From Physcomitrium patens (Eukaryota; Streptophyta; Bryopsida; Funariales; Funariaceae): 64,000 nt of DNA. The stretch is from positions 18,550,405 to 18,614,404 of the forward strand of contig NC_037254.1 of assembly GCF_000002425.4 (NCBI RefSeq), written 5' to 3'. The translations under genes and the position numbers were made by a program. The notes beneath the pieces are model-generated. The model searched no databases and had not been told where the DNA came from. It saw only the letters and a program-made list of their open reading frames with translations. Below are positions 18,314 to 64,000 of this stretch, piece by piece. The stretch's first letter is position 1, and each line of letters opens with the position of its first letter.

Positions 18314-18694
18314 ATGGAGAAAAGGCTCGTCACTCGAATTATCAACCAGACGAAACAGAGGCTGACGCTAAGAGTCCGAGACCAGAATCACTTTTCAAAG
18401 CTAGTGACCATCGACATCGGAGAGGAGTACAAAATGAAGACTGGCTTGCACTGGGCGCATCAGGAATTCTCATTAGAAACCAGCATAGCAGCGAAGAAGC
18501 TCACCTTCAATACAGACGATTGCTGCGAGAGCGAGCGCATCACCATCCACGATCTACCAGGAGGCAAACTAGAGGCTCACAGAGTTGCTCGGACCCAGCT
18601 TCAACCGGGTGTGGTTGAGAAACCAGCTCCTAGGTTGAACAGTTGGATTTGCCTGCCGGAGACCTTAGTTTGCAGGTTTCTGCAGTGGCAATGA
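18314..18694 (+). CDS. Uncharacterised small protein, 126 residues
   Basis: I do not recognise this protein. The first ATG of the open frame is at 18314. The N-terminal 85 residues alternate hydrophobic and charged positions, suggesting a beta-rich fold, and contain a Cys-Cys pair in an acidic segment. There is no signal peptide or membrane helix. The last 40 residues look less constrained and could be intron read-through: a second open frame at 18826-19104 might be a further exon, but I could not find a splice pair that convinces me. Base composition is gene-like and drops sharply after about 19110. It may be a lineage-specific gene or chance. Confidence 0.4.
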   Translation: MEKRLVTRIINQTKQRLTLRVRDQNHFSKLVTIDIGEEYKMKTGLHWAHQEFSLETSIAAKKLTFNTDDCCESERITIHDLPGGKLEAHRVARTQLQPGVVEKPAPRLNSWICLPETLVCRFLQWQ

Positions 18695-21600
18695 GTATCG
18701 CAGATCTCGCTTATCGACACAATGATGCTTCCTCTACCAAGTATGTCCGACTGATGATTTAACACAGAATCCCACCAAGTGTTACTCACTCGAACCGGCA
18801 GTTCACGATATGGGTTTTTGCAGACGTGTGTTTGTTCTCACAGGTTCTTAACGATCACGTACATATCGATAGCCCTGCGATCAGTGGAAAGTTGGTCTTT
18901 ATCGAACTGTTCATTGTCAGGGCGAAACTGCGAGTGGGACGCTGGGGTCTCGTAGACCGCGAGACGATCACAAGTGCGTGGCTTCGTCTGTTGTCGAGAT
19001 CAACACTGCAGCAGCAGGTGTCTCATCAGAAGTGCTCGACGAAATCGGCAGCGCTAATCGGGATCGCGGCGGACGAAGCGCCGAGATTCCAATCGTGCCA
19101 CTGACTTCTGCTTGGAGTAATTATAATATTTAAACTGATATGCGTTCATAAGTGATTACTGCTGATCAAATATTATGTATTGGTGACTTTTTCTTCTCTA
19201 ATAGAAATATGAAAATAATCGTAAATTTAATATTCAAAATATATACTATCTATTTAATGAAAAAACTTTCATAAGTGATAATGTAATTTAAGTAGCCTAT
19301 ATTATACATATAATAATAATCTTTCAAGCATCACATTGATTCTCTTTCTACAAGAGATTCATCTCAAAAATATTTCCATTGTCTTGTTCTTTTCACCAAT
19401 CTTATTTATTCTTTAATAGTATTAAAATTAAATAATAAAATATTCTCATATTCAAAACATCATGATACATTGTATGCAAATTAATACTTCAACAAAATAG
19501 ATATATATTAACAAATATCAATGTCTATTAATCTTGTTGTCTTATCTTTTAAAGTTAAAGCACAAATTTATAATAATAAAAATAAAAATAAAAATAAACT
19601 CTTGACTAAAAAAAACTTAAAGAAACTATTAGTATTACATTATGTATTTTTTTGAATTCAAGTGAAATTCCACATATCATTAATTTTTTTTTATTAATTA
19701 GTTAGTTTGAAGAAACTAAAACTCTCAAAAGCAAAATTTTATCTACTAAATATACTTTGTATATATTTCAAGGACATAAATCACAAAACTACCAAAGTAT
19801 TGATATACTCTTGTATTACTAGAAGAGAATAAATATTCACTTAAAGATAGTTGTAATATTAAAACTAGAATGACTATTCGCAAAGATGAGACGACTAAAG
19901 ACTCTTGAAATAAGACTAAGAACAAAATAGGCATTGATAAGAGTGAGAAAAGCTTTATTCTTTCCTTTGTATGGACTATCTAACTTAGGAGCTACGTTGC
20001 GAAGTTTTTTAAGTCATTTGACATATGTCCAATTTGCAAGACACATGTCTAATTTGCAATGTAAGTTTCCAATATATACACCACATAGCCAACTTATATC
20101 ACAAATAACCAACATGTACAATACATGGCCAAATTGTTAGATAAGTCATCAACCTATCAATTACCAACAAATACTTGTAAAGTCAAATTCCCGTCTATGG
20201 AGCTTTTAAAAAGCTTTTCTATAAGATATTATCAAATTCATCTACTTTTATTTCCTTCTACTTAATTCCTTTTATTTTAGTAATTACTAGTATTAATGTG
20301 TGTATTTAGGATGATATACAAAAAATATCAAAACAAATCTTTTTAATAAGTCATTTTTATTTAATTAAGTAATAATTTAAATTCTTTAAAATATTTTAAT
20401 TAAAATACAATGTAAATGTTATTTATTAACATTCTAACTATATAAAAATTTAAGAAAAAATTTTAAAAATATTAATTTTATTAACAATTATTATATGATA
20501 TCATTATTTTGTTATCTTTTTTAAAATAATCTTTAAATTTTTCTTTGTTTTTTAGCCAATATTAATCAATAACTTATTCATTCTAGCTATTTCATTCAAC
20601 TTTATTCAAAGATTCACTATAAATCAATTATGCGAGAATGTGTCTTAGATTAAGATCTAAAAAGTACCTTCTATATCCTTTTAACTTAGAAGCATATAGT
20701 CTTAGTCCTTGAAATTCATTGTTGTTGTGTTACATGTTTTCTTGTTTAAGAATATATTTGGTACTTAATCCTAATAAAACTGTAAAGACATCTTTATCCA
20801 ATTCTAACAAATCCTAACAAGACATTGTAATCAAATTCTAAATGAATCCTAAGTAGAATCCTTAAAATACTATAAATATCCGGATTAAATTCTAAATAAA
20901 TCCTAACAAAACTCTATAGAATTTTTAAAACCTCAATAATTATTAATTTAATGATTTATCTTGCTTCAAAATTTGCACACATTTCAATCTATTAATTAAC
21001 AACAAGAATATAAAATTAAACAAGAATTAAACTTAGAAATTACAACAAAAAGCTTCTAATCTACTTGAGTGTTGGCTAGGCCAACAGTAAGATAAGAGAA
21101 GGGTGTCGTCCTTCTTCTCTAACCTTAATATTAATCTATTAGAAAAAATAGTTCTTTATTTCACCATTAACTTGCCTTTAATATCTACAAGAACATTATA
21201 AATTAAGTTTGCTATCAACTCAAAAATAATTTTTTTAATCCAACTTATGTATTGCTTAAGATTATATAAATCCTTACTGACTCTTAAAATAAAATTTCCA
21301 ATATCTTAATTCAATTGAATTTAAATAGCCTTTGATCTAATTATAAGACTATTTTTAAATTCATAAAGTATATTTATAACAAATAAATTTTCAATTCTAT
21401 AAATTATTACTTGTTGATCTATCAAAATGCTCATGAATATTTCAAAATATTAATCCATTTTTATTTTAAGAAATTCCAATTACTTAAAACAACCCTAACT
21501 TTATAAAACTCTCATAAAGTCAATATCTACTCAAATTACTTAATATCAAATCTTTAACAAATCTTATGAAGTTTTTTCCTTAACTTTTCTTTATAATCAA

Positions 21601-22499
21601 CATTAAAATTGTGCAATTGCCGTAGGTACACAGTTCTATGTTTCAAGATCTAGTTTTAACCTTGATTTATAACAAGTCCTATATAAGTACTAATCTCTTT
21701 TTTTATATATAAATTTTGCTAAAAACTACTCTTTATTTCTACTTAATGATGCTTACAATATTATTTGTACTAATCAATCTTATTTTGTCTTGTTTATAGC
21801 CCTACAAAGTATATAGAAGTTTTTTTTTATAAAAAAAGAAGCATTAAAATCAAATATAGTTAGTACCTTACTATTTTTTACTTATATATTTCTAAAGTAC
21901 TTTGCTACTATATTCTTCAATTAAGCTCTCTTAAAATAAAATCTATATTTATTTTCTTTCATCCAATAACCATGTCATAATACTACATTATAAGATTTAT
22001 TACCACTTAAGTAAGAGTGCCATAAAATCTTATTAAGCTACTTAGATTCACAAACAAAATATGTAGTAGGTAGAATTTAAAACAAAATGTAAGTAAAGGT
22101 GATTTGTTTTAGAAGTTGCTAGGCGAACACCTCTCTTTTATTACTTCAACATTTATCTCTCTTCTTCTCCTCTTAATTTCTTCCCTTCATAATTTCTCTA
22201 TATTTTCTATAATACTTTCTTTTTTTATTCTCTAATAACTAAGATAAAAAAAAATCTTGTTGGATGCTTGAAAAAAGAAGAGTAGTTATATTACAAGTAA
22301 GTCTTATTTTTGTGCATATAATTTCTAAATTTACTACATTTTTTTTTGTTTGTAAAAGATTTTGAATCTATTGCCCTAAAACCCATTATAGAGTGTCTGC
22401 TATAATCAAAGCCACTTAAGTAGAATTCAAAAGCACTATCATCAAAGTACTTGTGTTTACAAATAGGCACCTTGCCTAAACACACTTAATGATATTATA

Positions 22500-22540
<41 letters not shown>
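22500..22540. repeat. (TA)n microsatellite
   Basis: About 20 uninterrupted TA units in AT-rich intergenic DNA. Confidence 0.97.
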
Positions 22541-22541
<1 letters not shown>

Positions 22542-24918
22542 CAAGGAATATTTATATAATAAAAGTAATGTATCTATATAGTAAAAGGTGGATATTTAAG
22601 CAATAAAAAAGAGATATTTATATTGTAAAAAGAAAGTGTCCACATAGTAAAAGAGAGATGTCAACTTAGTATTTTTCTTTGTTTTTATAACCAAAAACAT
22701 TGATTATTAAACATGGCAAGAACATATGAATGTTATTAATAGAATTAACATAAATAGATAATTTTAAAATAGATTTTATTCTTGTCAAAAAATCAAGAAT
22801 TTTCTATGACTATATTTTAGTTCTTAAAATCAAATAAATATGTAAGACATATATAGTACACATAAAATAAAATAAAATTATAAATAAAAAAAAACCTTAA
22901 ACTTTGATATTCTTTAAAGTTCTTCAATAATAATTCTACATAATATTAGGCAAATTTTAGATAATATCCACATACACTAATAAAAAAAATTGCATAGGAA
23001 GAAAAAATAATTAATTTAAAAAATATATATATATATGAAAATATTGTAGAAATTTTTACAATAATTTACAAAAATATTATCACAAAGTGAAAAAAAAATT
23101 GCATAAAACTATTTTCACAACTTAAACTACCTTCTAAGTATAATATAATGGCAATATATTAGCTATAATTTTTAATTTACTTAATAAATTCTATTTTTAT
23201 TTTTATTAAAAAAATAATATTATATACATAAAAATATACAAAAATTATAACCAATTTGTACTAAATTTATGAAACTGATTCTAAAATATCTCTAAAATAA
23301 ATTTTTTTATCTTATTTCTTGTATTATTTATGAAGATGTTATTTATACACTTATTGAAAAAATGTATATTATAAGAATTCTTTCAAAATATTTAAAATAA
23401 AATACATTCACACATTTTTTAACTTTCTAAACAATCTATGAAACTTCTTTTATATAAGTTAAGATTTTGGGTTTTTTTCAAATATATTGGATGTATAATA
23501 AAATTCTATTTTTTTTAGACATATTAAGACTTATTAACATTAATTTATTAAAGTAGAAATTTAAATTTATTTAAGCACAATATCTTAAATAATCTTTCTA
23601 CTTAGGCTATAAGGTTATATAAGCATCATGTATTTATGGCCATGTAAAATTATTGATGATGTCTAAAAATAATAAAATAGTATTTAATAATAGCCCTTAT
23701 CTTTGCTCTGAAAAATATCAAGATGCTTCTATTGAAATCTTTTTTGTAATATTATATTATTAGTTAATACAACTAATATTAATTATATTAGTCACATGGT
23801 TGTAAATAAAAATAGATGCAAGCCTATCTTATATATATATATAAATATATATATATATTTCTTTTTTGTTCAAAAATATATTAGATTCTTAGTTGTAGAC
23901 GTATTTATAGCTTTAAATACAAAATGAGCTTTTGATTCTTAATTTTGTCAAATTTTAATCTTATTCTTGTGATTAATTCTAATCCTCACCAATTAAATGC
24001 TAATAAGTTCACTCAAAAATCCTAATCTTAGCCATTCTAATAAAATAATCCTAAACCTAAACATTGTAATAAAAGATCCAAATCTTTTTCATATAACTAT
24101 TATAAATCCTAATTATTAGACTTTAATAGAATAAGCTTTTTTTATTTTAAAATCAATGCAAAAATTCGCAAACTACTTCAAAATCAATTTTTTTACATAA
24201 TTTCATAATTAAAGAATAATCCAGTTTTATAATTAAAAATAAACTTCAAAAAATCACACTAATGTGTCTCTAGGCCTCCTTTCCTAAACTTGATGCAAAA
24301 ATCACAGCCCTAAGATTTTCCGATTTCATAAAAAAAATAAAAAAAATAAAAAAATAAAAATGATCAAAATATTATAATATAATTAAATTTAAAGTATTGT
24401 ACTTGTATAACAGTTTTTGGCTTAACCAAATAAGTCAATCTTTAGTTATTGCATAAAATCTTATTATCTCCACTTTTCTAACTCGTGAAAATTCTTAAGG
24501 CTTGTGTTTCAATATTTCATAACTAGACCATGTAGATAATGATCACGTCAAGTAGCTCAATATACTATTGAGAATACTATTGCTTTACGAAGGAAGAAAT
24601 CTAATGTAAAAACAGTCACAATCCTTAAAAGGTTGGATAACACACCCACCTCACAGCACAAATGTTACACTAAAAAAATACCTTTGATTTTAAAAGCTCT
24701 TTTCTGGAGAAGAAAGGATCAAAAGTTCACATCTACATGCCCCAAAAGTCCAAGTCCTCAAACTCCCCAAATCCAAGTTCCAAATTACACAAAGTCCAAG
24801 TCCACTATCACTTTAGTACAACTAGAATATTGGATTTTTAAATTTCTTTTTTCATTTCAAAAAACATGTTAGTTGATAAATCATTTTTCTTTAAACATGT
24901 TACTTATTTTATGTGTGC

Positions 24919-24919
24919 A

Positions 24920-24955
<36 letters not shown>
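24919..24955. repeat. (TA)n microsatellite with TG interruption at its left end
   Basis: A TA run preceded by an atatgtat variant, in intergenic DNA. Confidence 0.95.
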
Positions 24956-24964
<9 letters not shown>

Positions 24965-25191
24965 AATCATATAACTTAATATTTTAATTTAAGTTTTGGA
25001 CTTTTCCAAGTAGTTCAAGTCATCAACTTATGAGGATTTCTCAAACATTCAAATGTTTTAAAGCAGTAGAGTACACAAAGTGGAAAGGCCCAATAGAATG
25101 AGACTATGGTGGTGCTTGAAGCTCTTCCATTCAAAGGGCTTGAAAAAAAACATATAAAAGTTATGTTAAACTTACTAATATTTTTTTTAAA

Positions 25192-25194
<3 letters not shown>

Positions 25195-25230
<36 letters not shown>

Positions 25231-25245
25231 CATACATACATACAC
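25195..25245. repeat. Compound (TA)n-(CATA)n microsatellite
   Basis: A TA run is followed directly by five catacata-type units. Open frames over it encode only Tyr/Ile repeats and are not genes. Confidence 0.95.
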
Positions 25246-25850
25246 AAGTACAAAAAAATCAATGAGAAATCCACTAAAAGTGGAAGGACACCATTTAGTG
25301 TGCATATACTTTTATATGCACACTTTTGTAAAGCAATGAAAAGAATCATGCATGAATGGATGCCTTCTAAAGAAGCTACCAAATCCTAAAACAAAAACAA
25401 TCCCATCCAATCCTTTCTTCATTGTATCCATGTGCACTCACAAAAAACAAAAAAAATAAAAATAATAAAAAAACATATTAAATTTATATTAAATAAAAAA
25501 AAGTAAGATTTGAACTTTTTGATCAACAAAATCCTATGGAAATGGTTTTTCTATCTTATAATCTACCTCCAATTATATCCATAAGGATTGGTGTTGTGAT
25601 AAAAAAAAGATATGAGTTACATATGAAGTATGTTGTGCCTTTGTATTTTGAAATTTTGATTATGGTTACCTTTGGCTAATTTAAATATCAATTAGGATGA
25701 GACTAAGTACCTAAAACTAAACCAAATACCACAAATACCAGAAAAGAGGCAAATTCAAAAATTTCTTGAAGTAAGTTCTATTCCAATGACAAGACACATT
25801 CTAACCTTCACCTTAAATCTCACAATAACAACAAATCAATCACACTATTA

Positions 25851-26176
25851 GGGGGTTCAAACATGGCACTTTTGCAAAACCAAATAACTAAATTCAACAC
25901 TTGATATTTCTAGGATCACTCAAAATATAAAATCTAAAATATCACCATTCAAACTTTATCTTAAAGCCAAGGAGGCATGATGTTAGGTAGTGAGATATGG
26001 AGCTGAGGTATGGACCCTCTTTTGATATTTGATTTCAAAATCACTCACCTTTCTAGTTGAGTGTGATTTGGTGAAGTATCAAGTGATATTTTGAAATAAG
26101 TCGAGATACTTCAAGTGCAAAATATCACCCAAAAGGGCCTCGTTTGAATCACCAAAAAGGCCATGTTTGAACCCCC
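25851..26176. mobile_element. MITE-like non-autonomous DNA transposon, 326 bp
   Basis: Perfect 17-bp terminal inverted repeats GGGGGTTCAAACATGGC (25851-25867) and its complement (26160-26176) bound the element. Each end is flanked by TA, a possible target duplication; an ATT duplication with an 18-base repeat starting with A is an alternative reading. Sub-terminal stretches also partly pair (cacttgatatt near 25900 against tatcaagtg near 26077), so the element can fold back. It has no coding capacity. The superfamily is unresolved: TA would fit Tc1/mariner, while the TIR style resembles PIF/Harbinger. Confidence 0.75.
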
Positions 26177-27812: not shown

Positions 27813-30332
27813 ATGGATCTCATCATGGTCAAGATCATGCTATTGATTGCTGTCTGCACCCACCTCTCGTTGCTGACGCTGGTCTGTGGGGACAAATCTA
27901 CACAAGATGGCGCCCATGACAAGGACTGGACGTCCAAGTTGATGCTCAACACAAGCTCCGAACTGGGAGGCGTAATGCGCCGTAGCCTATTCCCGGAAGG
28001 ATTTGTCTTTGGAAGCAGCGCCTCTGCATACCAAGTAAGTCATCTCATCCCTTCTTAGCGCAATCTTATACTTCGAGCCAGGTTTTCTTGTACACCGACA
28101 TGTCTGGAAAATTCACCAACCGTTTCTCACGTGTCTGTTTGTCAAAGTATGAAGGCGCCGCTGCGGAAGACGGCAGAGGGCCCAGCATTTGGGACGAATT
28201 TGCCAAAAGACCAGGTGGGAAAAAATTCATTCAAGTCAGGCAATTCTTAGCTCAAGGAGAGCAGAACAAGAATTTCTTTCTCGCAGGAGCTCCACATTGC
28301 TAAATTCTTCTTTCTGATTTCCACTGCAGGGACGGTGAAGGACAATGCTACGGGAGACATCGCCGTGGATCAATACCATCGCTTTGAAGAAGACGTTAAG
28401 ATCATGAAGGATATCGGTTTGGACGCGTACCGATTCTCTATCTCCTGGTCTCGAATCCTCCCACACGGACGAGGCTTCATTAACACGGCAGGGGTGGCAT
28501 ACTACAACAGACTCATCAACGAGCTCCACCGCCAGAGCATAGTCCCTTTCGTAACGCTCCACCATTTTGACTTGCCACTCGCGCTAGAACAGACTGGGGG
28601 ATGGCGCAACGCGGACACAGCGTCGGCGTTTGCTGAGTTCGCCGCACTGTGCTTCAGCTTGTTCGGCGATCGAGTGAAGTACTGGATCACGTTCAATGAG
28701 ATCCATATCCTCGCCATGAATGGGTACCGCTTCGGAATTGGCCCGCCAGGCCGCTGTTCTGCCTCTTCCGGAGATTGCTTCGCTGGAGACTCCGATGTTG
28801 AGCCGCCACTTGTCGTGCACAATGCTCTGAATGCTCACGCTTTGGCAGTCAGCGTCTACCGTATGAAGTTTCAGGTCAGACTCTCAACCCCTCTGAAAAT
28901 GTAGCAATATTCTAAAGAAAACTCTTCGCAGGTTCTTGATCAATGGACAATTTTCTCGTGATTTTCTACGTGTTAATTTGTTCAACTGTTTTTGGCTATC
29001 AGTCTAAGCAGAAAGGCTTGATTGGGCTCATCGAAGATGGGTCATGGTTTGAGCCGTGCAAGGATACTGACGAAGACCGTGACGCTGCGCTCAGAGCTAA
29101 CGAGTATTGGCTTGGCTGGTAAGTGATTGTCTTTACCTCGCTCTCACGCTCTCATGCACACACACATATTATATACATACACACACCACACATACATATA
29201 CTAACATTTGCAATCTGTTTATCTGTGTGCAGGATTTTGGACCCTCTCTTCTTCGGGGAGTACCCAGCCTCCATGCGCGCCTTTGACCATCGAAAGACGT
29301 TGCCCAGATTCACAAAGGAGCAATCCGCATTGCTGAAAGGTTCGCTTGATTTCCTTGGTTTGAATCAGTACACGTCCCAATTCGCAACTTACGACAAGCA
29401 CAGCGTGGAGAACAACGACGTCACAAGCTCACGTATGCAGCTTCGTCTCTGACCTACTGTGGCTACTGGCTGTGATCTCATTCCATTTGGCTCCTCATAC
29501 GATGAAATTACATTTGGATTGTCAATGTCGAATTTATCTTCTTCCCCGGCTCTTCACTGACCTGCTAGTACGCTTCGTTGAATTCGCAGCGAGGTGCAAC
29601 GGAGTTCCCATCGGACCCCAAGCAGCGGTAGGTTGGATTTACGTCTACCCAGATGGAATGCGGAAGCAGCTTGACTGTATCAGAACGCGGTATGGAAACC
29701 CGGTCGTTTACATCACAGAAAATGGTGAGCTTCAAAAATTGGCCTTCATTTCCCACACCCATCATACCCTTCTAATGACGCTAATATTCTCCGACAAAGG
29801 CCTTGGTCGATGTGTTTGTTCCTCGGTACAGTAGCATTGATCACAACTTTACCTCATCTTGCTCTACGTCCCAGGCTTTCCCACGAACGCAAACGACGAG
29901 CCGTGGTCTTCACAAGAAGTGCAAGATTTCGACAGGATCAGCTACCACCATGGCTACATGCAAAGCTTATTATCAGCCATAAGGTCATGTTAATCCCCCC
30001 TCATTTCAACGCAAAAAGAAGTATTGCCATCGCCAGTGGTTCACATTCCTGGATTGCCTTCACGTGGGATGGAACCATTCAACACTCGCAAAAATCTCAC
30101 GCTTCTGAGCGGTGTTGTGTGCAGGGGTGGCTCCGATGTCCGGGGCTACTTCGTCTGGTCGCTTCTAGACAACTTCGAGTGGCACGAGGGATTCCGGATC
30201 CGGTTTGGGCTCTACCAGGTAGACATCGGCTCCACTCTGAACCGACAAGCCAAAGCGTCCGCGCGCTGGTTCAAGCTGATGCTCGACAGAGTCGGCGGCG
30301 GCGGCGGCGTAGACGCCAAGACGGCGCGGTGA
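27813..30332 (+). CDS. Secreted family GH1 beta-glucosidase, 8 exons
   Basis: Hydrolyses beta-glucosides with retention of configuration. Natural substrates of plant GH1 enzymes include cell-wall oligosaccharides and glucosylated hormones or defence compounds; the substrate here is unknown. Exons 27813-28034, 28148-28214, 28330-28874, 29003-29118, 29233-29432, 29590-29724, 29875-29983 and 30125-30332 join to 533 residues, near the usual GH1 length. A hydrophobic signal peptide covers about residues 6-25. The GH1 start F-P-x-G-F-V-F-G-x-x-x-S-A-Y-Q is present. The acid/base motif reads T-F-N-E-I (Glu220) where Pro normally follows Glu. The nucleophile motif is I-T-E-N-G (Glu427). The late D-N-F-E-W-x-x-G block is present. 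The C-terminus has a Gly run from a GGC repeat and no ER-retention signal. Confidence 0.92.
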
Positions 30333-39534: not shown

Positions 39535-42500
39535 TTAGGTCATGACTTGCAGCGCTTCTCTCGTCTTCCCGAGAACGTTCAGTGCAGTGGCTGCAATGTG
39601 ACCCGCAGTTAGACCTGCTTCGGCATACTGGTCCTTGGGAGCCCCATGCTCGATGTAGCGGTCAGGTAGCACAAGTGGTCTCCACTGTTCAAAAGAAGAT
39701 AGCATGAATAAGAATCACTTTTCTTCACTGTGCTGGACTGGAGTGACAACCATAATTGTCCAATCATGTAAAAAAATCTGCTCAGAAGAGCGGGGACGGC
39801 AGATTTAAGCTCTTCGAACCAAAGTCATTTAACGATACCTAGGTTCTCATAATTTCACAAGAAATTCTGCAGAATTGAACTATAAAAGGACAGGAATAAG
39901 CATTTTGAAGGCACGATTGGACTAAATAGAGTACTTACCTTCAGCTTTCCGTCGAGGAGCCCATCCAATGCCATGAATTGCACAACATGAGAACCAAAGC
40001 CTCCAATAGAACCCTCTTCCACTGTAATAAGCACTTGATGGTTCTTAGCAAGCTGGCGAATAAGATCACGGTCAAGGGGCTTGCAAAACCGAGCATCGGC
40101 GACAGTCGCTGAGACCCCCAGGTCGGCAAGTAAGACGTGAGCAGCCAGGCAATTTTGGACCATTGTACCATAACCTAGAAGTGCCACTTCAGTACCTTCC
40201 AGTAGAATTCGCCCTCTACCGACCTGCGTTCAGGAAACAGATAGTCAAAACAAGACCTTGAAAACAGGATTGAGGAATATCCAGCATGGCAAACAGAGAG
40301 CGACATAGACCAGCTTAATACAAAACTTAGACAACCTTGCTCACTGAAGAATGAAAAGTTATTTGATAAATTATACATACCTCAATAGGAATTCCTTTGT
40401 TCTTTGCAGGCAATTGGACACCAATCCCGTTACCTCTGGGATACCTGAAACAGCTGGGACGGTCATCAATAGCGGCAGCAGTTGCTACCATGTGGAAAAG
40501 CTCAGCTTCATCAGCAGGAGCCATTACAACCATGTTAGGTAGGCAGGCCATGTAGGTGACATCGAAAGCCCCACAGTGAGTAGGCCCATCGGCTCCAACG
40601 AGCCCAGCTCGGTCCATTGCAAATCTAACAGGAAGCTTTTGGAGATCTACATCATGCACGACCTGATCATATCCTCTTTGAAGGAAAGAAGAGTAAATGC
40701 TGCAGAAAGGCTTCAATCCTTCGCAAGCAAGTCCCGCAGCAAACGTCACAGCATGTTGTTCGGCAATGCCCACGTCAAAGCATCTCTCTGGAAACCGCTT
40801 TGCAAATATGTTCATTCCAGTACCCCCTCCCATCGCTGCATGAATTCCAACAACGTCCTTATCGACCTCTGCCTCGGCAATCAATGCCTCGGCGAAGTAC
40901 GTGGTGTAAGCTTGTGTTGGAGCCTTTACCTTGTTCTGCTTCCCAGTAGCTGGATCGAACTTCACAACACCTGCACAACAGCATCAAAACGTAGATTCTC
41001 CATAAATAAAAACAGAAGGAGAAACACCAAAGCCTGGGATATTTTCAAAAGTCCATGCCATAGACCCATCAAAATCGGGGAAGATCAAACATTTATAAGT
41101 ACAGATCTATGCATCAAAGTACGTGCCGCTGACCCATTTTTAAACTAAGAATTAGGTCGTGAACACTCTTCAAACAACAGGCCACAGACTGTCAACAGAA
41201 AATTAACACAGATAGCTGCAACGAATGCTAACCATGGTACTTGTCTGCTGCTCGTTCAGCGTAGGGGTACCCTCGTCCTTTCTCAGTCACAAGGTGGATC
41301 AGCACAGGTCCAGTTGTAGAGGTATTCTTCACTTCCCGCAAGATTGTCACCAAATCGTCCATGTTATGACCATCAACAGGACCAATGTAGTACAGCCCAA
41401 GCTCCTCGAAAAGAGTCGACCCAGAACCACTAATCATACCTCGAGCATATTCGTCAACCTTAGACGCCAACACGTGCGCTGGACCCCCAAGTTGCTTAGT
41501 GACACCCTACAACGACCAAACAAAGAGTAGAGTTCATCATCGAACGCGGAAACAAAACCTTGTAAGTATCCATTTGAGCTAAAATTTTCTAACTGTTTAT
41601 ATTCCACCAACAGCACCACCACCACATCCTAGAGTAAGTATACCAACCTTGGCAACCTCACGGAGCTCACGCAGTGGCCTGCTTGACTGAAGCCTGCTGA
41701 GTGCACTACTCAAAGCACCAACGGGAGGAGCAGGGCCATCAAGAGTAGCTGTAGGTAGAGATACTTGTTTATTGTCGTTGAGGATTACGATCATGTTGCA
41801 ATCAAGATAACCAGCGTTATTCATAGCTTCGTAAGCCTGTCCAGCGGTCATAGCGCCATCACCAATAACGGCAATCACGTTATTTTTCTTGCCCTTCAAA
41901 TCCCGCCCAACAGCCATTCCTGAAACATCCAAAGCGCAGCAGCTTGTTGGTCATTTCCAAGAAGGTAAGCAATGACAGACCGCAATTAGGAACATGACAA
42001 TAGAGACCGCAAAAGCAAAAAAACGAAAACAAAAAAACAAAACAACCATATTCGCAATCGATTCAATATTCGTATATAAAATATAGCTCAGACATGGTCA
42101 TTTTTTAAGAAAACCCACCTAACCCAGCAGAGATACTGGTGGAACTGTGACCAGCTCCGAACGCATCGTACTCGCTCTCAGCTCTCTTCACAAAACCTGA
42201 AAGCCCGTCGGTTTGCCTCAATGTGTGCATTTTGCCCCTTCTCCCGGTCAAAATTTTGTGTGGGTAAGTCTGTGATAATCACGATGATTGCACAGGGTCT
42301 TCAGAAGGCAGGAAATAAGCATAATACAAAGTAACAAAATAACAACTACAAAAGAAAAGAAAAAGAGGAGTAAAAATATCACGGAAAGTGTCTATACTGA
42401 AATTAGTAAATCGCAAGAAACCAATAAAACTAACAATTAAATTAAAACGAGGCGTCTTCTAGCGAGTGCGCACTATCATTCATCCTAACAAATGGTTGTT

Positions 42501-54031: not shown

Positions 54032-56212
54032 ATGGCCAAGCGTTGCGTGAGTCGGCAGGTGAAGGGAATCATTAGATTGATTGCCAGCAACGGGGTCGAA
54101 AGGAATCCAGGAATCTGGGTTTCAAGTCAATTGCACCACTTTGGCTCATCTGATATTAAGGATGATTTGCTTTCTTCCTCTACGCCATCACATCAATTAT
54201 TTTTGAGTGGAATACGACATACGCACTATTCAGGTTTCATTTTTTGTAGAAACCGCTTATTTAAACATGCTTCCACTTTGCCAGAATTTCCAGAGGAACC
54301 CGGTGTGAATCCGGATCCACAATGTGAAAAAACTCCTCTCGATAGGCCAGGAGATGTATTAGCTCAAGATACTTTGCCAAATGTAGAAATTTCACCGTCC
54401 TCTGTTGGAAATGTAGCGAAAATGTTAACCATCGTCAAGAATTTACCCTGGACTTCTAGCTCAGAGAAGGCACTTTCGCAGTTTAGGGGAACACTTCATC
54501 CAGATCAGGTTAGTACAGTTTTATGGCGTTTGGAAGGACGCGAAGAGGTGGAGACAGGGTTGAAGTATTTCTACTGGGCCAAAGCACAGAATGGATTCAA
54601 GCATAGCATAACTTCCTTTAACACTATGTTGGTTGTTTTAGCCTCATGGGGCATTCTTGATCCCCTAGAAACCTTGTTGAAGGAAATGGTTGCCGAGGGT
54701 CGTCCACTGCGACCCAACACACTGGTGAAGCTCATCACAGCCTATGGCCGTGGCAATAAATCCGGTGATGCATTTGATCTTTTCAATCAAGCAGAATCTT
54801 TTGCCTGCAGTCCCACAGTGCACGCCTTCACCAAGCTCATAGACATTCTTGTCAACAGCGGAGAGTTTGAGAGAGCAGAACTTGTGTATAAGAAGCTGGT
54901 GCAGAAAGGATGTCAGCTGGACCGTTTTGCGTACAACGTTTTGATCCGCTACTTCGGCCGCTCTGGTCAACTGGATTCGGCTATGGAGATGTTCAGAGAA
55001 ATGAAGATAAAGGGGTCAGAGCCTGATGAATATACTTACGGCTTTTTGGTGAATGCTCTCGGCAAGGCAGGGAGGGTGCAGGAAGCTCGCTCATTCTTTG
55101 ATGCCATGCTTGAGAGAGGTTTAACTCCAAACATCCCCACATACAACCTCCTCATGGACGCTTTCAGGAAGGTCGGCCAATTAGATATGGCCTTGGGACT
55201 CTTCGCTGAGATGAAGAGGAGAGGTTTCCAGCCTTCGGTGGTGACATACAACATCCTCTTGGACGCATTGTGCAGTGCTGGACGTGTTGGGGCTGCTAGG
55301 AAGCTGTTCCACAAAATGACGGGGGATGGCTGTAGTCCGGATTCTTACACATATTCAACTCTAGTGAATGGGTTAGGGAAATCTGGCAGAGTAGAAGAAG
55401 CGCACAAAGTGTTCAGAGAAATGGTGGACAGAGGGGTGGCTGTTGATTTAGTGAATTACAACAGCCTGCTGGCCACTTTGGCGAAGGCGGGGAACATGGA
55501 CCGTGTCTGGAAGCTGATGAAGGAGATGTCTCGGAAGGGATTTCATCCTGATGCTTTTTCATTTAATACTATAATGGATGCGCTAGGGAAAGCTAATAAA
55601 CCAGACGCTGCTCGTGAAGTCTTTGCACGTATGGTGGAGTCGGGCTGTAAGCCCGATCTGATCTCCTACAACATACTTATTGATAGTTATGCCAGGTTTG
55701 GAGATGCAGCCCAGGCAAGACAAATGCTCGAAGAAATGGTGGAAGCAGGCTTTATTCCGGAGACAAAGACATACAATAGTTTGATCCATTGGTTGGCTAC
55801 AGATGGACAAGTGGATGAAGCATTCGCTGTGCTCGAGGAGATGGAAACTGCGGGTTGCAGGCCCGATGTTGTGACGTATAACCGGCTCATGGACATGCTC
55901 GGTAAGAGAGGAGAGAATCAGAGAGCAGCTCGGTTATTTCAGCAAATGAAGGACAAGGGTGTTGAGCCTGACACTCTCTCTTACGCTGTGAGAATTGATG
56001 GACTTGCGTTTGATGACCGGCTGGATGAGGCGCTTGTGCTGTTCAAGGACATGAAGGCAGTTGGATGCCCCGTGGATAAAGCCATGTACCGCATCCTCAT
56101 ACGGGCAGCTCACAGAGCAGGTGACACCGAGCTTGAAGCCCAACTGAAACATGAAAGTCAGTTTATGCCAGTAGAATCTAGGCTTACGTCGCAGAAAGCT
56201 AAGACTAAGTGA
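54032..56212 (+). CDS. P-class pentatricopeptide repeat protein, intronless
   Basis: Predicted organelle RNA-binding protein of 726 residues. P-class PPR proteins stabilise, process or help translate specific organelle transcripts. The Arg/Lys-rich N-terminus is consistent with a mitochondrial or plastid presequence. About 14-15 tandem 35-residue repeats run from about residue 192 to 710, most with the canonical Y-N-x-L-x-x-x-x-x-K-x-G start and P-D end. No E, DYW or SMR domain is present, so it is not an RNA editing factor of the DYW type. The absence of introns is normal for this family. The ATG at 54032 is the first in the frame. The specific orthologue cannot be named; fingerprints at repeat positions 5 and 35 are given in the findings. 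Confidence 0.94.
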   Translation: MAKRCVSRQVKGIIRLIASNGVERNPGIWVSSQLHHFGSSDIKDDLLSSSTPSHQLFLSGIRHTHYSGFIFCRNRLFKHASTLPEFPEEPGVNPDPQCEKTPLDRPGDVLAQDTLPNVEISPSSVGNVAKMLTIVKNLPWTSSSEKALSQFRGTLHPDQVSTVLWRLEGREEVETGLKYFYWAKAQNGFKHSITSFNTMLVVLASWGILDPLETLLKEMVAEGRPLRPNTLVKLITAYGRGNKSGDAFDLFNQAESFACSPTVHAFTKLIDILVNSGEFERAELVYKKLVQKGCQLDRFAYNVLIRYFGRSGQLDSAMEMFREMKIKGSEPDEYTYGFLVNALGKAGRVQEARSFFDAMLERGLTPNIPTYNLLMDAFRKVGQLDMALGLFAEMKRRGFQPSVVTYNILLDALCSAGRVGAARKLFHKMTGDGCSPDSYTYSTLVNGLGKSGRVEEAHKVFREMVDRGVAVDLVNYNSLLATLAKAGNMDRVWKLMKEMSRKGFHPDAFSFNTIMDALGKANKPDAAREVFARMVESGCKPDLISYNILIDSYARFGDAAQARQMLEEMVEAGFIPETKTYNSLIHWLATDGQVDEAFAVLEEMETAGCRPDVVTYNRLMDMLGKRGENQRAARLFQQMKDKGVEPDTLSYAVRIDGLAFDDRLDEALVLFKDMKAVGCPVDKAMYRILIRAAHRAGDTELEAQLKHESQFMPVESRLTSQKAKTK

Positions 56213-58264
56213 AAAGATCCTAGTGACCTGTAATTGTTTGAGTTTAGTGTACTCTTTTTCTGAAAATTATTGCAGTAGTTTAACTGTATGATGTGCATTG
56301 CATTTTTTTTCAGTACAACCTAATACATGGTGCAGTCATCGACACCTCACAAATTGGGGTCCAGCAAACACATCTTGTCTTGAGATGAACTGTTAAAGTA
56401 TCATGCTTGCTGGCCAATTAATATTGCATTCATTGCCACAGACACTAGCTTAATCCAATTATCTTGCATAGAATTTGAGTTTGTTGTCCTTTTCAAACTC
56501 CAGTAAAAGACTGTTTGGTGTAGTGTCATGCTGGACTGAAGCTCGTTCAATTTACAAGTTACACAGACAATTGGCATGACTCACCTTCGTAGGATGAAGT
56601 GTTTTTTTTTGTTTTTTTGTTTTATTTATTTATTTTAAGTCCACTTCCAACTGTTGATCCCATGCCGCCGTAGGAATCATCACCTGTGCTGCAGGTGACC
56701 AATCATGTAACCTAGTTATTCTCTGCATGTTGCTAGAGGGAACAGTAGTTGAACTTGAGGTAACTAAAAGTGAATGCAGGTGATGTAGAGTGGGTGGCAA
56801 TTTCGAACAAAAGAGATTATGTCAGCAAGTCGAAAGAACGCAGCCCAAGGAGACCAAAGCTTTAAAATACATTGCACGTCCATATTCTCAACTTGATGCT
56901 TCGGAATTTGGTAAATAAAACCAAGAGTAAAACGTGCAAATTGTCAATTCTCTTCTGAAAAGATGAAAAAATACAGAACATGTTAAGATAACACGAACAT
57001 AGTATCCGAATTCGTTGAACATCATTCTGTCAATAGCGGTTGAAACCAAAATTTATAAGAATTTTTATTTGAAAAAATGTCACAAATAAAAATAAAAAAA
57101 GTTGTCTCTAGGGTTGCCTTCATATTTCTATTTTTGTAGACAACTTTGAACAGAAAGATGTAATATATTATCACAAAAAACCTCTTTGTCATTCAACATG
57201 ATTGATCTATCATCATCATTATTATTATTATTATTATTATCTTCAAATTAGAAATTATGACAAACAAACATCTGACAATTCAACTTTAAAAAATAAGTAA
57301 TTAAGCTATACATTTTGTAGTAGATACCACTACAATTTGCAATATCAAATTTGGATTAAGCCTAGCAATAATAATTGGCATAGTGTTCTATACTATTTGA
57401 GGATCTATTCTAATTAAAAAACAATCTCAGCATGAACATTGGCAAGACTAAAGATAATTTTAAAATAAACCCTGAGATGCCTCAATATGAACCAAAATTG
57501 GTGCCCACTTCTTCCAAACCAATACCACCTAATCAGTACATCGAACTCAACCTTGACAAACTCAGAACCAAATAGTTCTATCAATAGCACTTCGAAGACT
57601 CGAAGTATGTTCAATTAGATGCCAATATTATAATCTCAATTGAATCGAACTCAAAAAAATCAGGAGACTAGAGTAGGAAAAAATACCCAAATCACATGCA
57701 GAAATCTCTGAAGAACTCCACATATAAATTTACTCCGAAGGTGCAGAATACGCCACATTGTTCAGTTTTCTTCCAGGTGCACATGATTTTATGCATAAAC
57801 AGCAATATGTCTTATACAAGAACCCATTTTTGAGTCAAAACATGCACTATTGAAAGTCCAGACGCAAAGCTCAAACTGCATTGTCTTCCACGAGTTATCA
57901 ATATTAAAGCAAGGAAAGTCATTCAACGACAAAGTCTAATTGCAAAGCCATCCTCATGTCCAGATTGCACATTCACAACTTCAAGAGCTCAACTGGGTCA
58001 CCGTTTTATGCATTCTACACATTCGACAACATTGCACATTCAAACCAAACACCTCAAAATCTGGTCGAATTGGAGTACTGATTTCACGTGAAGATAGAAT
58101 GCCTACATGAAATGTTGCAGTGTTGAAAACATGAAGGAAAAAATCATCAACACATGCTCACCATTCCTACAGATCTACAGAAAGAAACTGGACTGATTCC
58201 AGCTTCGATGTGGCTAATTACTCTATGAGACCAAGGCTGGGTCATACTTGTGACATGAGCTGAA
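56213..58264. other. Convergent spacer between PPR and ClpR4 genes
   Basis: It holds both 3' UTRs. A short ATT trinucleotide run occurs at about 57219-57240. No gene is supported. Confidence 0.6.
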
Positions 58265-59257
58265 TTAGATGAGCTGCGCCTTTTTGAGATCCGAAGCAAT
58301 ACTCCTCTTCTCATCTCCTTCAGCATAGAGAACCTTGTCAATAAGGCCATAGTCCACAGCTTCATCGGGTTTGAAATACTTGGGTCGCCTGATATCGTCG
58401 GTGATCTTTTCCACAGTCTGACCTGTATGTCTTGAGATCAGCTTGACGAGCTCTTCCTTCACATTCCGAACTTCCTTCCGGGCAATGTCAATGTCGGTAG
58501 CTTGGCCCCGGAACTGGGCAATTGGCTGTTTAAGCATGATGGTTGCAGAGGGGAGACAAGCACGGTTACCTTTGGAGCCTGCCGCAAGGAGCAATGCAGC
58601 TTCGCCCCAAGCGTTGCCTACACACAATGTGAAGATGGGGGGTTTTACGTACCGCATGGTGTCGTAAATGGCGAAGGCTTCGGTTTCGTAGCCCAGCTTC
58701 TCGCCATCCTTGGTGGTTCCCGTGGAGTTGATGTACATGTAAATGGATTTCTCAGGGTCATCGTATTGCAGGTACAGCAACTCTGCCATGACGAGTTCGG
58801 TGACGGCGGGAACGAGCGACATCGCTAAGAAGACAATCCGGTTCTTGAACAAATATGATGGCAAATCTGGAGGTGGCTGCTGCCTAGCATCTCCCCGTTG
58901 GAATGGAATAACCATGGTAACGACACCACGGCGGCCGCGGGATTGGGAACTCTGGTGGGTGCGCTCCACAGCTTTCCAGGCAGAAAACATTCCTTCCCCT
59001 GCAATGGAGCTCTGCATGCTGCTGCCCACAAAGGAGCACATGAGCTCATTGTAGAGGCGCAGTGGTTTTGATGATGTCTTCTTATTAGCCCTTGGCAATA
59101 ACTGGTCGTCTCTTCTCATCGACACAGAAGGGAATGAGCAATTGCTGCATGCCAGTGTCAGATATGAAGATGAGGATGTAGGGTGCCGTAGCTCAGCTCT
59201 TCTGCCTGTTGCAGCAGGCACTGATAGCCTCGCCCTCATCACTTCCACGGCAGCCAT
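58265..59257 (-). CDS. CLPR4: ClpR4-like inactive plastid Clp protease subunit, intronless
   Basis: Structural, non-catalytic subunit of the chloroplast ClpPR protease core ring. The protein has 330 residues from the ATG at 59257 (gccATGgc context); upstream in-frame codons lack an ATG. Residues 1 to about 110 are a Ser/Arg-rich transit region. The Clp fold runs from M-V-I-P-F (115) to the C-terminal S-D-L-K-K-A-Q-L-I, which matches my memory of the ClpR4 ending. Compared with bacterial ClpP, all three catalytic positions are changed: the Ser region reads G-N-A-W-G-E (Ser to Gly), His becomes Lys in M-L-K-Q-P (241-245), and Asp becomes Pro in R-R-P-K-Y. This fits a ClpR, not a broken ClpP. 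The lack of introns is unusual next to intron-rich neighbours. Confidence 0.9.
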   Translation of the reverse strand: MAAVEVMRARLSVPAATGRRAELRHPTSSSSYLTLACSNCSFPSVSMRRDDQLLPRANKKTSSKPLRLYNELMCSFVGSSMQSSIAGEGMFSAWKAVERTHQSSQSRGRRGVVTMVIPFQRGDARQQPPPDLPSYLFKNRIVFLAMSLVPAVTELVMAELLYLQYDDPEKSIYMYINSTGTTKDGEKLGYETEAFAIYDTMRYVKPPIFTLCVGNAWGEAALLLAAGSKGNRACLPSATIMLKQPIAQFRGQATDIDIARKEVRNVKEELVKLISRHTGQTVEKITDDIRRPKYFKPDEAVDYGLIDKVLYAEGDEKRSIASDLKKAQLI

Positions 59258-60323
59258 GGCGCCGTCCCCTCTCCTCACCTCCCCTTCAAAGCTTAATACT
59301 GGATTCAGGCACTCGGGTAACCTAACCGGAACCTACACGAAGCTCTGTAACAGCAACACACTCCTCAGTTAAAATAATATATTCGCAATTAGGCTATCCA
59401 GTTTCACACCTCACCACCAAAACAAAACCCACGACGAACCATGTATGGCGTAAATCCGCACTTTTCTCGCAATTCGTGCAAAATTCAGACCCTGTATCTC
59501 CCAACTGGTGGAAGCTCGCTAAGTGTTCTAAATTCGACACGGCAATTTCACTAACAGATTCCTGAAACGTAGGTCGAAAATTTCTGAAGCACCCTTCATC
59601 TCTGACCTAATGCAGAGCCCAGCAGCGAGATGATTTCACACCCGAACCTGTCGTATACTCCCGATTGATACCAAAACATGCACAAGTACATGGAATTGAC
59701 AAATTACAGGAACTCAGTTCGCGAAGAGTCGTAGCACTCACCGACGGAGGTTGATGGAGCAGTATGCGCAATCAGAATTCGTGGAAAAACACCTGAGAGT
59801 GTAGCATGTCCGACGGACGTCAAAGAAACGACATCAGAGGCTATCCACCCAAAAACGAAAGAGAAATGTCGCATCTATGACAGTGCACGCAAAGGTGGAT
59901 GGATGAACGTGCGTTGAGCCCTAAACCCCAGAAAGCCGGTTTGCGACGCCGAAGTCAGGAATTCTCATCTTTACACTCTAGAATTTACACGTATTGTGTG
60001 TGTGGAACCCCCAAAATGCGAGCAGGTTGTGAAATGATTAACAGCAAATTGATTGTGGACAATCGATTACATTTTCTACATTATTTAGCTGAAGATTGAG
60101 CACTTGCATCAGCGCTTGAGTGCACATTCGCCATCTTACTTGGGTTCAATTTTTAACTTTTTGGTGGTTTTTTGGTTCTTGTCGAGGTAGATTGTTAGGT
60201 TTTTCGCAGCTGGGGAATTTAGTGAAGGATGTGAGAGAATTAGGGGATTGTGTGTAAATTGGTAAGTTATTGTTCAGAAAGAGAGCGCGTGCACTGGGTC
60301 ATGTTTGCCAGGAGGGTAAAGAG
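59258..60323. promoter_or_regulatory. Shared intergenic region between divergent ClpR4 and maturase-like genes
   Basis: The two genes point away from each other across about 1.07 kb, so this should contain both promoters. An ATG at 60301 opens a short frame that overlaps the maturase start in another frame, a possible upstream ORF. Specific elements are not resolved. Confidence 0.45.
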
Positions 60324-62200
60324 ATGGCCATCCGCAGTTGGGTGGGCAGTTTCAAGTCCGTTTCCTGTGGGCGGCTCTCGGTCCTGCGTTCCTTGAGTAT
60401 GCTTGCGCAACAGCACTCAGCTGCGGCATTGGCCTCAGATGACCTCGTGAACACTGCTTCAGAGAAAACGATTGGCCCCTTGAATGCATCGCAAGGGACT
60501 TTGACTCATGCGAATTCTGCCAAGGTGAAGTTTCTAGGTGTCTTCATTGGTGTTGTCGATGATTCAAAGAGGAAACGTCAGTATGAAAAGGCTTTGGAGA
60601 AGCGACGCCGTGTTATCCATCGGTTGCGCCAGTTGCAGAAGCAGCGGAAGGAATCGTGGGAAAAGGAAGTTGAGCGGTTGGCATTCAATGCTTTCATTCG
60701 GGGCTATCGCAAGACCCTGAATACTCTCAGATCAGGTTTGTATGACTCTTCTGGTGGCCCTTTTATTTTATCTGTTTCCACATCCAAATTACAGAATTGC
60801 TAATTGGCCCATTTCCGTTTCGCTTGGTGGGAATGAATGAGTGGGGACATTCCTTGCAGGCAAGTTTGATCACCTTCGTATTTGTCTCTTGAACCGTTTA
60901 GGATTTGTTTTGCACACTTAAGCTCTCCATTGGACGGAAACTGTGTTTTTCCTTCTCTAGCATTAACATGGTTGATGAATTAGGCTCGAAGGCGAAGCAG
61001 ACTATTTTCGACAAGGCCACCGAACTTGGGATGAAGGCTGCTTTGACCCTGACGGACCATCACCCTCTGATGAGTAGCGATGACCTGAAGAAGCTGCTTG
61101 CACAGGAGGAGGATCATTTTGCTAGGCTTGGTTGGGATTATCTCCCTGTGTCGGTGAAGACTGCCTACGAAAATCTCATGCTATCTATTGATGAGGCTTG
61201 CGAGGAGCTCAATGCACAGGCTGAAGCTTCCAAGTTGCGACCAGCACTTCCCGCTGGAAAGCAAGAAATGGATATTACTGAATCATGCGATTCGAATCTT
61301 ACCAATGAAGCTGGTTTGGGGCTGCCTGAATCTTGCTCCGCTAGCTTGTCCATTGAGGATCTCCAAACTATGGATCACTGTTACGAGAATATCATGGTCA
61401 GAATGTCCGATCCGGATACTCTGTACGATGCTTATGAACGAATTAAACCAAAGCTTCAGTTGTTGAGTGGCAAGAGTGATGAAGACTGGAAGGATTTTAG
61501 TTTGAGTTCATTTGATCACATAGCATATAGTTTGCGATCAGGGACATATCAATTTTCTCCGGTTTCTCATATCCATGTCAGAAAACCTGGAAAGGAAGGC
61601 GATGTGAGAACAATTACAGTTGTCAATCCAAGAGACCAGATTGTTGCGGAGGCTATTAGAGCAGAGTTGGAGAGAATCTATGAGCCAGTGTTTTTGGTAA
61701 GTGCTGTTAGGCACAAATTGGCCAGGTCTAGCCACATGGCTCTGAAGTTGATCAAGAATAGTTGGAAAGGAACTACCTGGTTTATACATTACAAATCTCC
61801 AATAGAGTTTGGAAATGCACAATTTGAGAACCTATTGCGTATTCTATCAGCGAGGATAAAGGACGAGGATTTTTTGCATCTACTTCAGCAACTGTTCAGG
61901 ACTGGCATGATTAGGTTGGGTGACCATGGAAATCGATTGTCTGCTCTTTTTTGCAACATCTACTACCACCAGCTAGATATGGAGGTTACGCGCATGCAGG
62001 CAGAGCAGAATTCAGGCTCCAACAAGCGGGGAACGAACCAGTTGAGCAGCGCTGCAATTGTTCCGCTTGTCAGGGTGAGATACGTAAGATATGCTGAAGA
62101 ATTCCTGTTCGGCATTACGGGTAACAAGGTCATGGCTCTGGATGTATTAGGGAGGGTGCACGAGTTTCTACGACGCGAGTTGAAGCTGCGAAGGCTTTGA
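60324..62200 (+). CDS. Nuclear group II intron maturase-like protein with RT domain only, two exons
   Basis: Resembles plant nuclear maturases (nMAT family), which splice group II introns in organelles, mainly mitochondria. Proposed exons 60324-60739 and 60961-62200 give 551 residues. The N-terminus is Arg/Ser rich without acidic residues, like a mitochondrial presequence. The junction joins in phase (donor gtatga, acceptor ctctag); other donors nearby break the frame, but the splice is inferred. The RT-like part shows R-T-I-T-V-V-N-P-R-D-Q-I-V-x-E-A-I-R, then a block equivalent to R-L-G-x-H-G-N-R-L-S-A-L-F-C-N-I-Y. Last comes Tyr-Ala-Glu-Glu (516-519) where active RTs have Y-A-D-D. The protein ends only about 32 residues later, so the maturase X domain is missing. 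It could be a degenerate paralogue, a structural variant, or split by an intron I cannot see. Confidence 0.8.
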
Positions 62201-64000
62201 TAGGGACTCCATGAACCTGCGGAATACTCGGTCACGGCGAGAGGAATGGCTTAGCATCACTTTCGTGTGGGTGGGTTGGAGCCAAAAACGAAATTATATT
62301 GCTCTTTCTACTCTGCCTAAGTGAGCGAATCCGTATATTGTTCAACTTTCTGAATTGAAATTTTCAGGGTATGTGCCAAGTCCGAAAGATCCATTCGTTG
62401 GTGTGTGTTGCTACTCGTTCTTCGATTACCAGTTTTAGCCAATGAATGATTTCAATCCACTGCTAGTTCTTTTGTAAATATAAATGATTTTTCCTGCACA
62501 GTAGCATCACAGGTCTTACACAGTATGAAGTTTTGGGACTTCTCTCGCAAAAGGACGGTTAGCTGTTTTTGCAGCAAGAATCGGTGGTTTGATTTTTGCA
62601 GCAGGCCTTTGTTCTAATCTGATGTGCAGTTCTTGCGTACAGCTTGAAGTTGAAGTTGAACGAGACGTTGGGCGCAGCATCATATCTAATGACGGGGGCG
62701 TCAAGGCACCGCGGCCTAGTCAAACTGAGACACTGGGAATAATTTTGTAAGTTGCCAGGCACCATTGTCTCGAAGGAAAACGGGACTCTACATGCTTTTG
62801 CATGGATTGATGAATGCCTTTATACTTGCTTGGACAAGTATAGTAGGGAATTTTAGCAATGCATTAGTGGTTATATTAATATTGATATTCCCCTTTCCGA
62901 GAGTACAGTATCTATGTCTGGCAATTGTCGCTCTCTTAGTATTTTCACTTAAGCCGGATTGGTTCCCGGGTTGGAGTTACCAACGTACTCAACTAGGATG
63001 GATTTCGAGACAGCGTTGACGGACTTAACGTGGTCTGATTACACTTCATTCTGTATTACGCGAAACGACGTGTGAATTTTTCCTACTCATGTGTTTGTGC
63101 ATCAACATATCAATGACCTGGGTGAGTACGCACGAAAGATGTGTCAACCTCTGTAATCTCAAACATATCATGTGATACAGACTTTTGTCGGTTTGTTGGT
63201 TCGTTTGATTCTCCAAATCCTCGTAAATCAAGCTCTAGAGTATGAGATACATTTGTGCTGTTGCTTTCATAATTTTCTTAATGTTTATGTATGCATAGCA
63301 ACACCTTGTTTATATTAAGCTCAGAAATGGGCTTCCATTGCGTTAGGTCGGTAGGCAAGTGTATTCACGACATTCGAATCTGCGACAATAAATTCGAGTA
63401 TGCTTCGCAAAATTAGTTAATTCCATAATCTGCCAGTTTCATTAGTTAATTTGGAATGATTAATTGCATACTTGGTCTCGAGAACCATCTTCGCTCTTCT
63501 TTTTCTTCGTTCAATCACCTCGCACTGTGCTTTACAAATGCAACCTGTATTTGTCAACACCATTACATTCCTGTTTTCGTTTTCCACCTTTTAGTACCTA
63601 GCACCACATCAACTGCTCGGCCTCCAAACGCTTTTGTAGTGATGACCGTTGTATTTCCAGAGCATTGTAGACACATACAACACTTGGCTGCATTCGAGCA
63701 CGTCGGTGACTGTGTCCCGACTTTAATGTGGAATAAAACTGAGCGCCAGCGATGAGAGGATGAAGAAGGGCAGGGGGGAGAAAAAGAAAAAAATGTTGGG
63801 GCAAACTTATCTTCAGCACTTGGGACATTCAATAGAAGAGAAGAACTACGCCGTTTGTAGACATTTTTGTAGACATCTGGAGGAGTGCCCTGGCTCTGTA
63901 GTACCGCAATGAAGGTCCCCTCTATTGAGCATTCTTCAGAGCAATGCCCGTGATCAGTCCTCGTTAAAGAGGCTTGCAGCAGATGTTTCGTGTTTGGACT
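62201..64000. other. Region after the maturase-like gene, no gene supported
   Basis: I searched for a maturase X domain in all forward frames and saw none. A frame ending at 63019 has a Leu/Ile-rich stretch that could be a membrane segment but begins at a TTG; its first ATG is at about 62792. The frames at 63456-63832 on both strands lack signatures. Confidence 0.5.

Follow-up and report, generated by a model that had tools for sequence, protein, structure and literature searches.

A maturase-derived gene of Physcomitrium patens with RT7-like sequence ahead of its reverse transcriptase domain and no detectable X domain

Results

A two-exon gene derived from a maturase

The window, by which we mean the whole 64,000-nucleotide stretch of DNA analysed, carries towards its 3' end a gene of maturase descent, whose parts are listed with the other features of the window in Table 1. 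A PPR gene lies close to it, and it is adjoined by a Clp protease family gene which is probably of CLPR type. The rest of the window holds a transketolase-like exon, presumably DXS-like, a glycosyl hydrolase exon, a frame of the DUF7748 family and a very AT-rich tract.

Table 1. Features of the window, in order of position.
Feature	Position	Strand	Basis or remark
Frame of family DUF7748	18302-18694	+	Pfam, E 5.9e-25
Very AT-rich tract	20001-26000		GC 0.20-0.27; GC skew -0.30 at 20001-22000
Glycosyl hydrolase family 1 exon	28335-28904	+	Pfam, E 6.2e-64
Transketolase-like exon	40327-40965	-	Pfam Transket_pyr, E 3.7e-52
PPR gene, single 726-codon open frame	54032-56212	+	Pfam PPR_2, E 1.1e-145
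Clp protease family gene	58265-59278	-	Pfam, E 9.6e-54
Maturase-derived gene, two exons, 551 codons	60324-60739 and 60961-62200	+	ATG at 60324; TGA at 62198-62200
N-terminal leader, residues 1-53	60324-60482	+	Targeting-peptide-like; composition
RT6 strand and RT7 'LTHANSAKVKFLG', residues 54-78, at the N-terminus	60483-60557	+	HMM; alignment with paralogues L103 and L113
Linker of the RT7-to-X type, residues 79-243, split by the intron	60558-61273	+	Match to L103
Spliceosomal GT-AG intron, 221 bases, GTATGA...TTCTCTAG	60740-60960	+	Removal restores a single 551-codon open frame
Fingers and palm from RT0 to the RT6 helix, residues 277-551, RT7 not included	61373-62197	+	54-protein profile, TIGR04416, Foldseek
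Motif A Asp replaced by Lys, residue 417	61793-61795	+	D160K, alignment with 54 bacterial proteins
YAEE for YADD, residues 516-519	62090-62101	+	D308E and D309E, same alignment
TGA TAG double stop, the permutation break lying just upstream	62198-62203	+	Profile positions of the two blocks

The 60739/60961 splice proposed in an earlier note on this DNA does yield an open frame of the expected length; its exact position is not certain, an alternative at 60736/60984 (intron 60736-60983) giving 542 codons, nine fewer. At the local base composition, 412 consecutive open codons would arise by chance with a probability of about 2e-11. We trained codon scores on the window's PPR and Clp genes; they are positive for each exon as a whole (0.21 bits per codon for exon 1, 0.16 for exon 2) and negative in every frame of the intron and 3' of the stop, where no other frame continues; within 61501-62190 the gene's own frame falls slightly below zero in two of seven 150-base intervals. 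Residues 1-35 include 4 K/R, no D/E and 13 S/T/A, a composition like that of a targeting peptide; the targeting peptide named in the earlier note is putative.

Mobile group II elements have their proteins encoded within a surrounding intron RNA; no group II intron RNA was matched around this gene in a search of 57000-64000 against Rfam at E up to 1. Nor were relatives of the protein found in viral contigs.

A group II intron reverse transcriptase with a replaced active site

The identity of the gene as a group II intron reverse transcriptase (RT) relative is firm. Exon 2 matches the NCBIfam model TIGR04416 over profile positions 3-242 of 353 (E 4.7e-20; 72 bits, below the model's cut-off of 300), and its best PDB match by sequence is LtrA (E 3.4e-22); the Pfam RT family gives no score on this exon. 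Against a profile of 54 bacterial intron proteins, the remainder of 84 usable proteins (from 92 loci) once near-duplicates of more than 80% identity had been removed, the window protein itself being excluded, we obtained 121.7 bits at positions 12-250 and 28.0 bits at positions 303-341. An AlphaFold2 model of exon 2 (mean pLDDT 75.3) has as its top Foldseek matches in the PDB LtrA (E 8.5e-12) and crystal structures of the RT domains of bacterial maturases (E about 5e-11). The likeness to LtrA and the bacterial intron proteins thus comprises both the RT0-RT6 sequence and the predicted fold, and the observation of a maturase-like frame with YAEE where YADD is usual is confirmed.

The active site is more altered than had been noticed. 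The Glu-Glu in place of the usual pair of aspartates is as the earlier note described it, but the third catalytic residue, that of motif A, had been missed: in alignment with the 54 proteins D160 is replaced by Lys and D308 and D309 by Glu, and the trio of aspartates needed for an active reverse transcriptase is absent. In this the 12 bacterial proteins aligned differ, since they retain both the Asp of motif A and the RT5 DD; their domains run in the order RT, X, D/En-like tail. Seventy-five columns are at least 95% conserved in the 54 proteins. The count covers the 60 that fall no further than the end of the window RT block (L338) and leaves out the 15 beyond it; of the 60 the window protein keeps 33 and loses 27. 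The losses concentrate in the active site, where 14 of 17 columns are affected; of the other 43 columns, 13 are (Fisher p 4e-4), the active-site set being our own choice on the basis of the general RT motifs. The best reading of this pattern is that the protein would be catalytically dead with the residues of its fold retained. Since the paralogues described below are degenerate in other ways (FGDD in L113, YADD in L105, FADD in L119, FADN in L115, YGDR in L104), YAEE is particular to the window gene among the loci seen.

The X domain is missing from the gene and its surroundings

The frame does stop 32 residues past YAEE, as had been stated, but not where an X domain should begin: it ends at profile position 341, inside RT6, and RT7 is absent from the C-terminus. 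The X domain that the earlier note proposed seeking 3' of 62200 was not found as far as the end of the window. Neither the spliced protein nor a six-frame translation of 62081-64000 matched a Pfam X family, and HMMs of bacterial X domains gave none in the window gene or in any frame downstream. An HMM made from eight X segments of this genome matched, in the window protein, the RT7 stretch (6.2 bits) and two stretches at less than 0 bits, and detected nothing more in the 7.8 kb 3' of the stop. In the genome as a whole (470,438,890 bases, 101 contigs) Pfam X occurs at eight places, none of them near the window gene, the nearest on the same contig (C2) being 2.4 Mb away.

Because X was found neither in the 7.8 kb downstream nor on the contig within 2.4 Mb, it is very unlikely that an exon was missed or that the frame shifted recently. 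A frameshift near 62200 was rejected in that no downstream frame holds a remnant of X and the coding signal stops at the stop codon; an X exon outside the window is excluded for the next 7.8 kb and by the genome search. The nearest paralogues, moreover, are only 30-32% identical to the window protein (36-37% across shorter stretches), too little for a newly truncated copy of any locus found. The view that this is an open frame without X, and no recent frameshift, therefore stands.

An incomplete gene model, with the X exon past a long intron or an assembly error at 62200, might still be entertained on the grounds that the window ends 1.8 kb past the stop and that some neighbour loci look broken by introns. 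We consider it very improbable: besides the searches just described, coding homology reaches the double stop, so that an intron starting earlier would cut into it, and the segment missing past the break is located instead at the other end of the protein.

RT7 and the linker precede RT0

When the whole window was scanned with an HMM of 12 bacterial RT6/7+X segments, the best match was to exon 1 of the same gene (E 0.0038). The exon 1 piece scores 13.1 bits, compared with a best of 9.0 among the 1779 listed of 2000 shuffles; of 2641 control peptides from the fetched loci, those above 13.1 bits comprised 86 intron proteins together with a single further peptide, which scored 47.7 bits and which we take for a fragment of such a protein, and the next scored 9.1. 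A full-length HMM that includes the window protein places exon 1 at positions 342-401, its RT match reaching 340; with the 54-protein profile, which does not include it, the N-terminal piece falls at 349-395 and the RT match ends at 341, although the RT7 piece scores low there, at 4.0 bits within the complete protein and 5.9 bits when the N-terminal part is scored by itself. A profile forced to align end to end scores 39.9, where 300 shuffles reach at most 29.8, and hhalign of the RT7 match to the bacterial proteins gives a probability of 9.8% and a score of 24.2, the highest of 200 shuffles being 22.6. AlphaFold2 modelled exon 1 alone as helices only (pLDDT 69.8), with no RT7 strand, and so does not support the strand. 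By bacterial profiles alone, then, the RT7 match appears suggestive, not decisive.

The stretch after RT7, taken by itself, has a score reached by 6 of 300 full shuffles and 27 of 300 block shuffles. We had considered whether residues 79-290 hide an X thumb; the signal does not rise above those block shuffles, and the paralogues show a linker before X.

Two paralogues from the same genome carry the argument further. Window residues 61-243 align with residues 162-334 of locus L103 (also L100) at 27.7% identity, E being 4.8e-14 or 1.8e-13 in two sets. L103 is a 502-residue stop-to-stop frame on contig C23, in which RT5/6 (residues 115-154), the matched segment and X (340-441) follow one another without interruption, and its residues 115-154 match the other end of the window protein, residues 509-548 (E 0.001 to 0.009). 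The nearest RT paralogue, L113 on contig C15, is a 617-codon stop-to-stop frame (30% identity, E 5e-42) of conventional order, RT0-RT6, RT7, linker; to the N-terminal segment of the window protein alone its likeness is weak (E 0.043). By eye, the C-terminal 'FLRRELKL' and the N-terminal 'LNASQGTLTHANSAKVKFLG' of the window protein together make up the contiguous L113 stretch 'FLQSNLQLQVDSENTRLAHAVSDRTLFLG'. The break is clean: the two ends are contiguous in both L113 and L103 (by eye), and the profile resumes at position 349 after stopping at 341. RT6, RT7 and the linker are thus common to the three genes, but L103 and L113 have them in the usual order; they differ from the window gene also in that L103 has X and no RT0-4 nearby, and in that L113, with no X in the 10 kb fetched, keeps FGDD.

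Relative to these homologues two blocks are swapped within one reading frame. Exon 2 holds the second part of the linker and the RT with no stop between them; since residues 140-551 share this uninterrupted exon, the arrangement is a single permuted frame rather than a pair of adjacent genes.

Could the N-terminal likeness to RT7 and linker be due to chance, or to a coiled-coil composition held in common? The segment is rich in K/R and in E, and draws weak unrelated matches too, for example to DNA polymerase I (E 0.018). Against this, the match to L103 extends over 183 residues at a composition-adjusted E of 1.8e-13, includes the FLG of RT7 and lies at the correct place relative to RT6, which leaves a chance origin highly improbable. 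We hold it very probable that the window gene is a circular permutation, RT6/7 and linker followed by RT0-RT6, without the X core. The break would separate the RT6 helix from the RT6/RT7 strand, so that RT7 and the linker which formerly led towards X now stand ahead of RT0; such an arrangement might have arisen by a tandem duplication whose outer parts were lost, or by insertion of a circular or re-joined copy. The X-less maturase form put forward earlier is accordingly retained as regards the missing X, but not as a simple truncation, RT7 and the linker having been relocated to the N-terminus.

A decaying pseudogene has to be weighed at this point: the gene would then descend from an ancient duplication, have been rearranged and deprived of X, and now be subject to drift. 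The X core is gone and all three catalytic aspartates are replaced, several partial maturase loci (L112, L114) exist in the genome, and a gene truncated and dead at its active site can be a slow pseudogene; on the other hand the gene has an intron, 551 open codons and coding-like codon use, and a neutral copy old enough to share only about 30% identity with its nearest paralogue should contain stops. Retention of fold residues alongside loss of those of the active site also speaks against drift, though the pattern was possibly inherited from before the rearrangement. Because 551 codons are still open at about 30% identity, a neutral relic seems unlikely to us, if by no means negligible as an explanation.

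Other maturase loci of the genome

A search of the genome for paralogues, another check that had been proposed, did bring to light loci where RT and X occur together: L104, L105, L119, where the RT starts at RT2, and the matK-like L102, with a low score for its RT. The 518-codon frame on contig C101 is presumed to be matK-like. L103, running from RT5 through RT7 and linker to X with no RT0-4 frame in the preceding 3.8 kb, is the complement of the window gene.

At three loci, L113, L114 and L115, the 10 kb fetched yielded an RT but not an X peptide (3.6, 4.7 and 4.5 kb of it downstream, respectively). L115 (G000:C20:1023101-1033100, 4346-5449, + strand) runs from RT0 to RT7, with FADN at the catalytic site, and ends right after FLG, no X having been found in the following 4.5 kb. 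At three others, L116, L117 and L118, there is an X and no RT peptide in about 10 kb (6.6, 6.5 and 7.5 kb upstream), an opposite-strand RT match at L118 (E 1.7) being taken as chance. In L116 (G000:C11:15112000-15121990) a 254-codon stop-to-stop frame, 6604-7365 on the + strand, has a Ser/Leu/Arg-rich leader directly before X, and looks like a stand-alone X-domain protein. L118 (G000:C13:3096000-3105990, 7475-8254, - strand) comprises X and a remnant of a D/En HNH-like tail, and begins just after RT7. L118, and perhaps L117, may be a terminal exon set apart from the rest of its gene by a long intron, and at other loci an intron of more than about 4-7 kb could conceal a partner exon.

These loci bear on the possibility of a split maturase, in which RT-only proteins, the window protein among them, would be completed to one working maturase by X-only or RT5-to-X partners, either nuclear-encoded or the plastid MatK. 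It would account for RT without X at the window gene, L113, L114 and L115 in the 10 kb fetched, for X without RT at L116 with its own leader, L117 and L118, and for the complementarity of L103; a precedent is MatK, whose RT is partial and which, according to PMC13172542, acts in a four-protein complex. Doubt arises from L117 and L118 in so far as they belong to long-intron genes, and we rate the proposal as possible rather than probable. The earlier suggestion that the protein works with a separate partner gains some ground from the occurrence of RT-without-X and X-without-RT loci in the one genome.

Discussion

Like nMAT1 and nMAT2, the type I proteins of angiosperms, which PMC3927076 and PMC9321910 describe as nuclear group II RT relatives with a degenerate RT and no D/En domain, the window gene is a nuclear relative of group II RTs whose own RT is degenerate. 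The nMAT proteins differ in running from RT to X: in nMAT2, by the account in PMC5713396, RT occupies residues 104-461 and X residues 486-625 of 735, whereas the window protein has RT7 and linker before RT0, and no X. Of what marks an nMAT-type maturase it therefore shows the relation to RT, but neither an X in the same protein nor the order RT0-RT7 then X.

MatK provides a different likeness, that of a maturase with a partial RT which works with protein partners. According to PMC13172542, MatK consists only of RT5-7 and X and belongs, in Arabidopsis and tobacco, to a four-protein complex whose other members are MKIP1, ValRS2 and EMB3120/SWL1, a protein of unknown molecular function. The parts retained are different, MatK keeping X without RT0-4 and the window protein RT0-6 and RT7 without X. 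Our literature search, the wider part of which was made by title among the matches listed, found no description of a permuted, split or fragmented maturase protein. Moss nuclear maturases have been surveyed by Guo and Mower (2013), as cited in PMC3927076, and some of the paralogues reported here may already be listed there.

From the observed anatomy of the sequence (the gene structure, RT homology, order permuted relative to two paralogues, replaced aspartates and lack of X) we arrive at an overall best explanation that we think more probable than not: a permuted, catalytically dead scaffold for organellar splicing. The protein would be a nuclear, probably organelle-imported descendant of a group II intron maturase, in which the RT fold is retained to bind intron RNA through fingers and palm, the palm being completed from within the chain by the RT7 strand at its N-terminus. 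It could then aid the folding and splicing of organellar group II introns without catalysis, a splicing role for which we put the chances at about even. X may be contributed by a separate X-bearing protein; that X function is supplied in trans is a tentative suggestion, and one we lean against. More speculative still is the proposal that nuclear RT-only scaffolds (the window gene with its permuted RT block, and up to three others) and X-only proteins (L116, perhaps L117 and L118) reunite as organellar heteromers.

If the scaffold explanation is true, selection would have kept the RT portion of a group II intron protein as a scaffold, separate from the domain presumed to do the work of splicing. 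Together with X-only genes in the same genome, it would allow a direct test of the break-up of an intron-bound maturase into trans-acting pieces, which is the route proposed for the spliceosome and is partly seen in the MatK partner complex. Heteromers of RT-only and X-only proteins, if they prove real, would represent a step towards a spliceosome-like division of labour.
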